Below, piece by piece: positions 6,711 through 62,788 of a stretch of DNA of 64,000 nucleotides. The position numbers and the translations under genes are program-made. This stretch comes from Bacteroidota bacterium (GTDB lineage: Bacteria; Bacteroidota; Bacteroidia; Chitinophagales; Chitinophagaceae): NCBI GenBank assembly GCA_013288945.1, contig JABDAZ010000004.1:20800-84799 (forward strand), given 5' to 3'. The notes beneath the pieces were generated by a model. The model was not told the origin of the DNA. It did no database searches and saw only the letters and a list, made by a program, of their open reading frames with translations. Positions within the stretch are counted from its first letter, which is position 1; every line of letters starts with the position of its first letter.

Positions 6711-7880
6711 TTAATAAACAATCTCTTCGTCGCCAACTTTTAATAGCAATTCTTTTTTATTATTTGCTTCTACCCTGCCAACAATTTTTGCATCGATATT
6801 AAATTGTTTGGAAACATTAATAATACTTTCTGCATCTTTTTCATTGGTAAAAATTTCCATCCGATGGCCCATATTAAAAACCTGGTACATTTCGCGGTTA
6901 TCGGATTTGGAAGCTTTTTGAATGAGTTTAAAAATTACTGGGGGTTCAAATAAATTGTCTTTTATAATTTTAAAATCGTGCGGCAAATATTTCATGCATT
7001 TGGTTTGGCCGCCACCGCTGCAATGTATTAATCCGTTTATTTTATCAAAATGTTGTTCCAACAAAATTTTCATAATTGGCGCATATGTTCTTGTGGGGCT
7101 AAGTAATAAATTGCCAATTGTCAATTGCAAATTGTCAACTTTTATTTCATCCGTCATTTTATGCGGGCCAATGTACACAACATGATCATCTAAAGAAGTA
7201 TCAAACGATTCATGAAAACGTGCACCATAAGTTTTATGCAACACATCATGCCGCGCACTTGTTAATCCATTGCTTCCAATTCCGCTATTATAAGTTGTTT
7301 CATACGTTGATTGTCCATAACTCGCCAAACCAACAATCACATTGCCGGCACCGATTTTTTCATTCGTTATTAATTTATTTTTTGGCCAGCGCGCAGTCAT
7401 TGTTCCATTTACTGCAATGGTTCTTACCACATCGCCAACATCAGCAGTTTCGCCGCCGAGGTATTGAATGTTCACGCCAAACCTTTTCATGTCATCGAAA
7501 AAATCTTGCGTGCCATTGATAATCGTTTCTAAAATTTCTCCCGGAATATTTTTTTTATTTCTATCAATCGTTGATGAAAACAACAAATTGTCATAAATGC
7601 CCACGCACAATAAATCATCCAAATTCATTGCGACTGCATCCTGCGCAATGCCGCGCCACACGCTGGTATCGCCGGTTTCTTTCCAATATAAATAAGCCAA
7701 AATACTTTTTGTGCCTGCACCATCTGCGTGCATAATATTTATTTGATTTTCATCGCCGCCTAAATAATCTGCATACATTTTACAAAATGCAAAAGGATAT
7801 AAACCTTTATCCAGTTTTTCTGTTGCTTTATGAACTTCTTCTTTTTGCGCCGAAACACCGCGTTGGGAATACAAAGACAT
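6711..7880 (-). CDS. purM: Phosphoribosylformylglycinamidine cyclo-ligase (AIR synthase)
   Basis: 389 residues, in the usual range for the Bacteroidota enzyme. It catalyses ATP-dependent ring closure of FGAM to aminoimidazole ribonucleotide, step five of purine biosynthesis, in the cytoplasm. Recognisable segments are YSQRGVSAQKEEVHKA at the N-terminus, HADGAGTKSILAYLY, AMNLDDLLCVG, LGGETADV and LLSPTRTYAPI, matching the AIRS N- and C-domain layout. It stands alone, convergent with the TPR gene. Around residues 244-256 the DNA consists of near-repeats of TTGACAATT/TTGGCAATT, like the intergenic words of this window, but the encoded segment (VDNLQLTIGNLLL) still aligns with what the family usually has there. 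Confidence 0.93.
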   Translation of the reverse strand: MSLYSQRGVSAQKEEVHKATEKLDKGLYPFAFCKMYADYLGGDENQINIMHADGAGTKSILAYLYWKETGDTSVWRGIAQDAVAMNLDDLLCVGIYDNLLFSSTIDRNKKNIPGEILETIINGTQDFFDDMKRFGVNIQYLGGETADVGDVVRTIAVNGTMTARWPKNKLITNEKIGAGNVIVGLASYGQSTYETTYNSGIGSNGLTSARHDVLHKTYGARFHESFDTSLDDHVVYIGPHKMTDEIKVDNLQLTIGNLLLSPTRTYAPIMKILLEQHFDKINGLIHCSGGGQTKCMKYLPHDFKIIKDNLFEPPVIFKLIQKASKSDNREMYQVFNMGHRMEIFTNEKDAESIINVSKQFNIDAKIVGRVEANNKKELLLKVGDEEIVY

Positions 7881-8060: not shown

Positions 8061-9047
8061 ATGACTGTACATTATCAACTGGAAAACCTGCCCGATTTTA
8101 TTAATGCCGTAATTACTATCGGTACTTTTGATGGCGTTCACACCGGCCATCAGCAAATTATTAAGCAATTAATTGAAGAAGCAAAAAATGTAAATGGAGA
8201 AAGTATTATTATCACTTTTCATCCGCATCCAAGAAAAATTTTAGGCGCTTCTAAAGAAATAAAACTCATTAATACCATTGAAGAAAAAATAGAATTGCTC
8301 GCTGCAAAAGGTATTGATCATCTTGTTGTCATTCCGTTTACTGAAAAATTTTCGCAACAAACTGCTGAAGAATATATTAATGATTTTCTCGTCGCAAAAT
8401 TTCATCCACACACAATTATTATTGGGTATGATCATCGTTTCGGGCAAGGCCGAAAAGGCGATTATCATTTGATGGAAGATTTTTGTGAACGTTGCAATTA
8501 TCGTTTGCTCGAAATTCCCGCGCATGTTTTAAACGCTGTGTCAGTAAGCTCTACACGCATTCGCGAAGCAATTATTAATGCAGATATTTCAACTGCAAAT
8601 ACATTGCTTGGTTACGATTTTTTCTTTGAAGGATTAATAGTTGAAGGCAAAAAACTCGGCAGAACAATTGGTTACCCAACAGCCAATTTAAAAATTATTA
8701 ATGAAGAAAAATTGGTGCCGGGAAATGGCGTTTACGCAGTTGAACTTTTTATTGTGAATGGTGAATTGTCACTGATGAATAAAGAAAATGTTGGCATTAA
8801 TAATTCGCAATCGATCTTTTACAAGGCAATGATGAATATCGGTAACCGCCCGACTGTTAATGGAACATCAACAACAATTGAAGTAAATATTTTTGATTTT
8901 AATGAAGACATTTACGGAAAAACAATTCGTGTGTTTATAAAAAAACATTTGCGTGCAGAACAAAAATTTAACGGACTTGATGCTTTGAAAGAACAATTGG
9001 CAAAAGATAAATTAAATGCAATCGAATCGTTGACCGATGGCCTATAA
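8061..9047 (+). CDS. ribF: Bifunctional riboflavin kinase / FAD synthetase with a repeat-derived insertion
   Basis: 328 residues. It phosphorylates riboflavin to FMN and adenylates FMN to FAD. The N-terminal FAD synthetase half carries GTFDGVHTGH (residues 21-30) and TFHPHP; the C-terminal flavokinase half carries GRTIGYPTANL from about residue 200 and MMNIGNRPTVNG. Between GVYAVELF and YKAMMNIGNRP, where the family normally has a short beta hairpin of a few residues, there are about 20 extra residues (from about 231). The underlying DNA starts with the intergenic word TGTGAATGGTGAATTGTCA. The insertion keeps the frame and the flanking motifs, so the enzyme is probably active. The gene is convergent with holA. 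Confidence 0.95.
   Translation: MTVHYQLENLPDFINAVITIGTFDGVHTGHQQIIKQLIEEAKNVNGESIIITFHPHPRKILGASKEIKLINTIEEKIELLAAKGIDHLVVIPFTEKFSQQTAEEYINDFLVAKFHPHTIIIGYDHRFGQGRKGDYHLMEDFCERCNYRLLEIPAHVLNAVSVSSTRIREAIINADISTANTLLGYDFFFEGLIVEGKKLGRTIGYPTANLKIINEEKLVPGNGVYAVELFIVNGELSLMNKENVGINNSQSIFYKAMMNIGNRPTVNGTSTTIEVNIFDFNEDIYGKTIRVFIKKHLRAEQKFNGLDALKEQLAKDKLNAIESLTDGL
8751..8816 (+). repeat. Family-A repeat word inside ribF
   Basis: Begins ATTGTGAATGGTGAATTG, the same word as the hairpins at 31208 and 62731. A weak inverted partner (ATTCGCAAT) follows about 40 bases on, as expected for a decayed hairpin. It encodes the extra residues of RibF. Confidence 0.6.
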
Positions 9048-16856: not shown

Positions 16857-16954
16857 AACGACATTTTATTTTTCCAATTCATTTGCATTAATAAAAAAGT
16901 TTGCGAAAATAATTGAGTGATTGATTATAAAACGCAGATGAATAAAGAACTAAA

Positions 16955-16984
16955 GTACAAGTGTGCGACGCAACTGAAGATGAT
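16955..16984 (+). repeat. Dispersed repeat D, copy 1
   Basis: GTACAAGTGTGCGACGCAAC followed by TGAAGATGA. The same word occurs at 47871 (reverse), 49895 and 55621, each time in noncoding DNA and preceded in three copies by AAAGAA. Confidence 0.8.
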
Positions 16985-17079
16985 TAATGAACAAATGTTC
17001 AGTAAAAAATTTTTTATTAATGAAGATCTATTAATACGTTTTTATTATTTGAAAAATATAACTCATAACTTATAATCCA

Positions 17080-31170: not shown

Positions 31171-31207
31171 AGCGTGAGGTTTGTAGTGAGTGGTGATTAG
31201 ATATTTC

Positions 31208-31318
31208 GTGAATGGTCAATGGTGAATGGTGAATATTATTAATGACAATTTAAAAACGAAATATTGAATCACATTTCATATTCATCATTCACAATTCGCC
31301 ATTCACCAATTCACCAAC
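31208..31318. repeat. Family-A intergenic inverted repeat
   Basis: Left arm GTGAATGGTCAATGGTGAAT plus GGTGAAT; right arm ATTCATCATTCACAATTCGC then CATTCACCAATTCACCAAC. The arms are complementary with mismatches over about 27-38 bases and the right arm abuts the stop codon of the LTA-synthase-like gene. Confidence 0.75.
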
Positions 31319-49862: not shown

Positions 49863-49894
49863 GTAATCCAAAAAATTGTTCACAAAGAACCGCT

Positions 49895-49931
49895 GTACAA
49901 GTGTGCGACGCCAATGAAGATGAATAGAGAT
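49895..49931 (+). repeat. Dispersed repeat D, copy 3
   Basis: GTACAAGTGTGCGACGCCAA followed by TGAAGATGAATAGAGAT. Preceded by CACAAAGAAC, as in copy 1. Confidence 0.85.
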
Positions 49932-50030
49932 ATACTGCTTGGTTATTAATATTTCGTATAAAACTTCATTTAAAATAAAATTTCATTAACCTTATAAATC
50001 ACACAAATCCCAGTTCAAGTAAAGAATATT

Positions 50031-55533: not shown

Positions 55534-55620
55534 GGAAAAAATGATAATAAAAAAAGTAAAAAATATCTTAATATCCAATATCGCAATATCAAATCCTGAT
55601 TTGCTGAATAAAGAAAAAAT

Positions 55621-55660
55621 GTACAAGAGTGCGACGCCAATGCAGATGAGCAGAGATTTA
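55621..55660 (+). repeat. Dispersed repeat D, copy 4
   Basis: GTACAAGAGTGCGACGCCAA then TGCAGATGAGCAGAGAT. It keeps the layout of copies 1 and 3 with scattered changes and lies between the large palindrome and the pdhB promoter. Confidence 0.8.
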
Positions 55661-55706
55661 ATGTTTGGTAAAACCCTATTTTACACATACGAGGTATTTT
55701 TGCTGA

Positions 55707-62723: not shown

Positions 62724-62730
62724 TCTTCTG

Positions 62731-62776
62731 AATTGTGAATGGTGAATTTTCTATTCACGATTCACCATTCACCATT
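62731..62776. repeat. Family-A hairpin between lepB and cdd
   Basis: AATTGTGAATGGTGAAT, a TTTCT loop, then ATTCACGATTCACCATTCAC; the arms match as GTGAAT units. The same word as at 31208 and inside ribF. The ORF-track start of cdd is within it. Confidence 0.75.
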
Positions 62777-62788
62777 GACAATACACTT

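Follow-up and report, generated by a model that had tools for sequence, protein, structure and literature searches.

How does a word that builds intergenic hairpins come to stand in frame inside an essential enzyme, and is such an entry exceptional? The question is raised by ribF in a 64-kb stretch, here called the window, of a genome (G000; 3.03 Mb in 116 contigs, 73% complete) from the Chitinophagaceae, a large family of free-living soil and water bacteria. The gene (8061-9047, + strand) encodes a bifunctional riboflavin kinase/FAD synthetase of 328 aa (Pfam FAD_syn 2.4e-48, Flavokinase 2.9e-40), which is intact and scores above the cut-off of the NCBIfam model ribF TIGR00083, in agreement with the first-pass annotation, where an in-frame repeat without frame damage had been noted. 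The repeat word TGTGAATGGTGAATTGTCA is present exactly and in frame at 8753-8771. The forward arm to which it belongs extends further than first described, comprising four units (GTGAATG, GTGAATT, GTCACTG and ATGAATA; 8754-8781, + strand) that encode VNGELSLMN and match (GTGAATG)4 at 23 of 28 positions, while a third-order Markov null of equal size yielded no 28-mer at 22/28 or better. A decayed inverted partner had also been suggested, and is found as CATTAATAATTCGCAATCGATCTTTTAC at 8795-8822 (+ strand), although its 18/28 match to (CATTCAC)4 is weak on its own, being equalled by 0.5% of random 65-nt windows. No hairpin remains, the single-strand fold of the insert having z = +0.59, as compared to -3.23 and -4.10 for two intergenic hairpins of the same heptad family. 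These were earlier placed at 31208 and 62731 and occupy 31206-31308, with GGTGAAT/ATTCACC arms, and 62726-62781, just upstream of the next gene, respectively. A start called upstream of the ATG of that gene would add residues encoded by the repeat at 62735-62776 (VNGEFSIHDSPFTID).

The insert lengthens a surface that appears to tolerate it. The segment from NGVYAV to MMNIGN has 41 aa in the window RibF and 23-26 aa in most relatives, i.e. 15-18 extra residues rather than the approximately 20 previously estimated. In an AlphaFold2 model, residues 232-253 (8754-8819, + strand) form a loop that joins the beta strands 223-232 and 254-265 and is predicted to be disordered, with pLDDT below 50 at residues 236-245 and a mean of 86 overall. 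The loop is variable in length across the family, since Corynebacterium RibF (chains of 4uzf/2x0k) also has a naturally longer loop at the corresponding place. On the best explanation, the loop itself serves no purpose and is simply tolerated.

Among the tandem repeats of this genome, heptad arrays predominate. A tandem-period scan of 432 kb detected 39 strong arrays of period 7, as compared to 0, 0, 1, 6, 0, 0, 0, 1 and 1 arrays of periods 4, 5, 6, 8, 9, 10, 11, 12 and 13, respectively. Allowing up to three mismatches, TGTGAATGGTGAATTGTCA has 34 copies in the genome versus 2 for a reversed control, and occurs at five places in the window versus 0.10 expected from shuffling; genome counts here and below are based on pattern searches and sampled stretches, and the surveyed genomes are mostly MAGs. 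The arrays are intergenic in 33 of 39 cases and genic in six, with non-coding sequence making up 13% of the DNA. Their unit words are many (GTGAATG, TTGACAG, GGCCGAT, TTATGAG, GTATGAA, AGCTAAC, GATTTCT and others), and many arrays have an inverted-pair arrangement, the usual form being an intergenic hairpin with inverted arms. The 64-kb window has no Rfam hit that reaches the gathering score. Other Chitinophagaceae have heptad arrays too, each with its own words, and none was detected in four genomes of the order from outside the family, in small samples that together cover about 94 kb. The window also carries a separate dispersed repeat, GTACAAGTGTGCGACGC(CAATGAAGATGA), which is not heptad-like and has four copies in the 64 kb (16939-17007, 49879-49947 and 55605-55673 on the + strand, and 47886 on the - strand).

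The RibF loop is a recurrent site for such arrays. In an alignment of 118 different RibF proteins, collected from the same genus, the family and named genome records, 13 have a strong heptad array between NGVYAV and MMNIGN, as determined with thresholds of our own choosing that miss decayed arrays, including that of the window. Elsewhere in these genes a single array was found, and, as the loop represents 9.7% of the gene, the concentration has p ~1e-12; periods other than 7 gave one array within the loop and one outside. At least ten different unit words are represented: GTCAATG with ATTCACC arms, GGAATTG, CCACTCG, GTTTCCA, AAATGGC, GGGAGTC with AACATTC, GGCAATA, ATCGGCA, AATCAGC and CCATCAC. 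On a RibF tree calculated without the loop columns, the state with or without a heptad changes at least 11 times. Two close relatives capture one such difference, as L024 and L099 have a GGGAGTC arm in common and are set apart by 51 bases (17 codons) that supply a further arm, of the AACATTC family. Further inserts (L002, L092 and L026) carry inverted arms of array families, and L024 and L023 combine arms from two different families.

Adjacent to ribF, a purM-like gene (6711-7880, - strand) holds a second in-frame array, CAATTTGCAATTGACAATTGGCAATT (DNLQLTIGN; 7109-7134, - strand), in a loop of 28 aa. Six of 75 such genes, including that of the window, have a heptad array in this loop, which precedes LLLSPTRT, and none has one elsewhere (p 2e-7). 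The loop measures 28 aa in the window and in most of the 75 relatives; the array has therefore replaced sequence and not been added to it. A comparable case is ArgH, where G000 and G026 (two of 38) have ATTCACCATTCACAATTCACCATT in a loop of constant length across the 38 relatives, the G000 array being near-perfect (ATTCACC) and in frame at L183:10842-10870 (contig C7). These length-neutral arrays indicate that overwriting happens beside insertion. Thus, the tolerant loops of RibF, PurM and ArgH have been entered repeatedly in different lineages, and the ribF case, earlier regarded as a rare event, is no one-off, given the 13 RibF loops and the PurM arrays. Additional genes show arrays as well: an N-acetylornithine carbamoyltransferase-like gene of G000 has an AAAAAGT array in frame (EKVKSKKEKLKI) before LTWAPH (L183:8249-8282), and GGAAACT arrays in G046 lie, apparently in frame, in the tail of a putative UvrD/PcrA-like helicase and in another putative conserved gene (L282 and L283).

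The reading frame constrains which arrays can persist in genes. Because 7 and 3 have no common factor, 21 bases of a pure heptad array pass through all three frames, and what can survive in a gene is consequently a unit or orientation without stops, or an array whose stop has been lost by mutation. A pure GTGAATG array meets TGA in every frame; in the window ribF, TTG TCA stands at the third unit in place of the TGG TGA of a pure array. Coding arrays are in a stop-free orientation in 20 of 22 cases, versus 46% of intergenic orientations, a difference that is largely forced by position in an open frame and hence is not independent evidence.

When did the insert arise? The first 24 bases of the insert (ATTGTGAATGGTGAATTGTCACTG) agree with the corresponding sequence of G025 (ATAGTGAAAGATGAATTGTCGTTG) at 19 positions, the whole genes being 70% identical, and this correspondence shows an insert that, as judged from the two sequences, was already in place before G000 and G025 diverged. 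It is probably also older than the divergence of G010, where MVNGQGS with inverted arms is found at the corresponding place (fold z -1.5). By these comparisons, the insert of the window was inherited and later decayed, and the idea of a fresh insertion does not hold. In sister genomes, as placed on the RibF tree, the insert is absent or other words stand in its place. The alignment of relatives that the first-pass annotation had recommended accordingly reveals an insert that is present in some, variable, and partly lost or replaced. Relatives carry related heptad DNA, and not the same residues on unrelated DNA; the other objection raised at the outset, that the loop might be an ordinary ancestral part of the family, applies to the hairpin loop itself, which is ancestral and length-variable, but not to its heptad filling, which is not general.

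We propose that one of the genome's heptad hairpins was copied into ribF long ago, and that this copy has been inherited and has partly decayed. Such copies probably reach loops that tolerate them through slippage and template switching rather than transposition. Arrays would grow by slippage in 7-base steps, and the two arms would copy one another through template switching. Array tracts may then seed or overwrite new sites via short homology, in a copying process resembling gene conversion, and selection would remove all insertions except those in loops that keep the frame and the enzyme function; a transposase would be unnecessary. In G021, ten other loci have 16-24 array bases in common with the RibF insert (GGAATTG family) and unrelated flanks; the arrays therefore lack fixed ends. 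In a large hairpin of G054 (L214:9562-9780), the unit word changes gradually along each arm, and the order on one arm mirrors that on the other, with 53 of 62 positions agreeing in register versus at most 0.80 in other registers, which is suggestive as a possible trace of arm-to-arm copying; the mirror-order test in general is likewise no more than suggestive, as ten hairpins were usable and one of them gave a clear result. Two observations run counter to the simplest version of this scheme, namely that arms from two families (L024 and L023) are not predicted by simple arm-to-arm copying, and that the length-neutral arrays of PurM in the window and of ArgH require overwriting, not plain insertion. 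Template switching and slippage are what we infer from sequence patterns.

The strongest competing explanation is local birth, i.e. that 7-base tandem repeats arise on the spot through polymerase slippage in a loop drifting free of constraint, with no donor elsewhere in the genome. Many bacteria have an excess of heptanucleotide repeats, and one proposal is that the polymerase slips over a footprint of 7 bases (PMC4679880, PMC4692102). The RibF loop varies in length anyway, and one insert speaks for this explanation: the AAATGGC unit of G070 is mostly restricted to its own ribF, with six places in that genome, three of them within ribF itself, nine related places in a single G026 array, and no clear enrichment at home. 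Most tested insert units are, however, abundant in their own genome and scarce in sister genomes. The sequence GGAATTGGGAATTGGGAATTAGG, from the RibF insert of G021, occurs at 90 places in G021 versus 0-1 in nine other genomes; GTTTCCA arrays number 18 in G046 versus 0-2 elsewhere, and AACATTC counts 18 in G057 versus 0-9 elsewhere, with reversed-pattern controls near zero. Other units are more widely distributed, ATTCACC being present in nine of ten genomes (with a maximum of 282 places, in G035) and GGGAGTC in four of ten. Since unit counts are high in the own genome and low in sisters, RibF inserts generally use words that are current in their own genome. The inverted arms of array families within the inserts of L002, L092 and L026 likewise argue against an origin on the spot, which we therefore consider unlikely.

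Alternatively, the arrays may be mobile elements resembling MITEs or REPs, with a transposase, for example a Y1 (RAYT) protein, responsible for their movement. The copies are dispersed and hairpin-forming, and G000 has two Y1_Tnp genes, each lying a few hundred bases or less from heptad-like sequence, but heptads are common enough for chance proximity to any gene. Constant ends, length and flanks are all absent among the copies, and G025 and G008 (each 99% complete) lack a Y1_Tnp match yet have heptad arrays, G025 even having the ribF insert. The earlier proposition that the family moves or is copied is thus upheld as far as spread within the genome is concerned, but not as a transposing element, as common ends and flanks are missing and a Y1 transposase is dispensable. 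Transposition of this type is accordingly improbable. A Y1/RAYT transposase as the driver was looked for with PF01797 in 60 relatives and rejected, arrays being present without it. That the insert is kept for a function, whether as a hairpin that regulates the ribF message or as a loop of use to the protein, is the least credible explanation and hardly to be expected, the similar amino acids of G000 (IVNGELSL) and G025 (IVKDELSL) being outweighed by the lost hairpin fold, the predicted disorder of the loop, and sister genomes with other words or no insert.

Returning to the copying of arrays by slippage and template switching, we tentatively extend it to a family-wide process, a speculation that we regard as possible yet rather doubtful: in Chitinophagaceae, a transposase-free process may keep writing the dominant seven-base words into tolerant sites, including length-neutral overwriting of essential-enzyme loops, with the words turning over together in concerted evolution. 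If words turn over together within a genome, enzyme loops would record the history of its repeats. The RibF and PurM loops, with many independent entries and host-matched words, represent a replicated natural experiment on noncoding repeats entering proteins, and the spread of seven-base arrays in the absence of an evident transposase becomes a directly testable question. For annotators, loop peptides such as HSPFTIHHS, VNGQWSM and SRESGV are repeat DNA, not protein signal.

How do these arrays compare to known systems? Searches of the open-access literature turned up no account of Bacteroidota protein loops that carry heptad arrays, and heptad arrays that refill the same loops of conserved enzymes are, as a combination, apparently not described there before. 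REP/RAYT systems are expected to have the Y1 (RAYT) transposase in carrier genomes, while heptad-bearing G025 and G008 gave no PF01797 match. For a comparison with MITEs, which have terminal inverted repeats and target-site duplications, the observations are that inverted arms exist and that the ends vary. The TAACTGA direct repeats known from Beggiatoaceae, Cyanobacteria and some Bacteroidetes are also seven-base tandem units, sporadic in Bacteroidetes (PMC4679880); unlike the Chitinophagaceae arrays, they consist of one fixed word, lie mostly upstream of start codons, and always contain stops in the forward array. Heptamer arrays of Xanthomonas and Nostoc (GGGAATC / GGGGA(C/T)T) are genome-specific, vary extensively in length and are mostly near but outside genes, according to the available text of PMC4692102, where they are studied as G-quadruplex formers and where in-frame use of enzyme loops of the RibF/PurM type is not described; most of the Chitinophagaceae arrays are not rich in G, and they form hairpins.

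Closer in one respect are the Rickettsia palindromic elements, which are common to intergenic regions and conserved protein genes, where they are in frame and tolerated, with 19 genes affected and Gmk still active (PMC2229807). The same in-frame insertion into conserved protein genes is seen here in RibF, PurM and ArgH. Those elements are, however, palindromes of 105-146 bp with terminal inverted repeats, whereas the Chitinophagaceae arrays have 7-base units and are constant neither in length nor at their ends. 'Selfish DNA in protein genes', known mainly from Rickettsia, hereby becomes countable in a large free-living family. The closest likeness is to the STRR repeats of cyanobacteria, which are dispersed and mostly intergenic. 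One example is the tRNA-Leu(UAA) intron of Nostoc, whose P6b stem has a site where heptanucleotide repeats of one class are repeatedly exchanged for those of another (PMC4476775). Both systems have seven-base tandem units, in the P6b case on both arms of the stem, and a permissive site that is repeatedly refilled by another repeat class, but the described STRR host sites are RNA stems and spacers, whereas those of Chitinophagaceae are conserved-protein loops, entered in frame. With their excess of period 7, dispersed and mostly intergenic distribution and strain-specific words, the Chitinophagaceae arrays fit an STRR-like kind, the likeness being one of kind and not of descent, with no sequence kinship expected.
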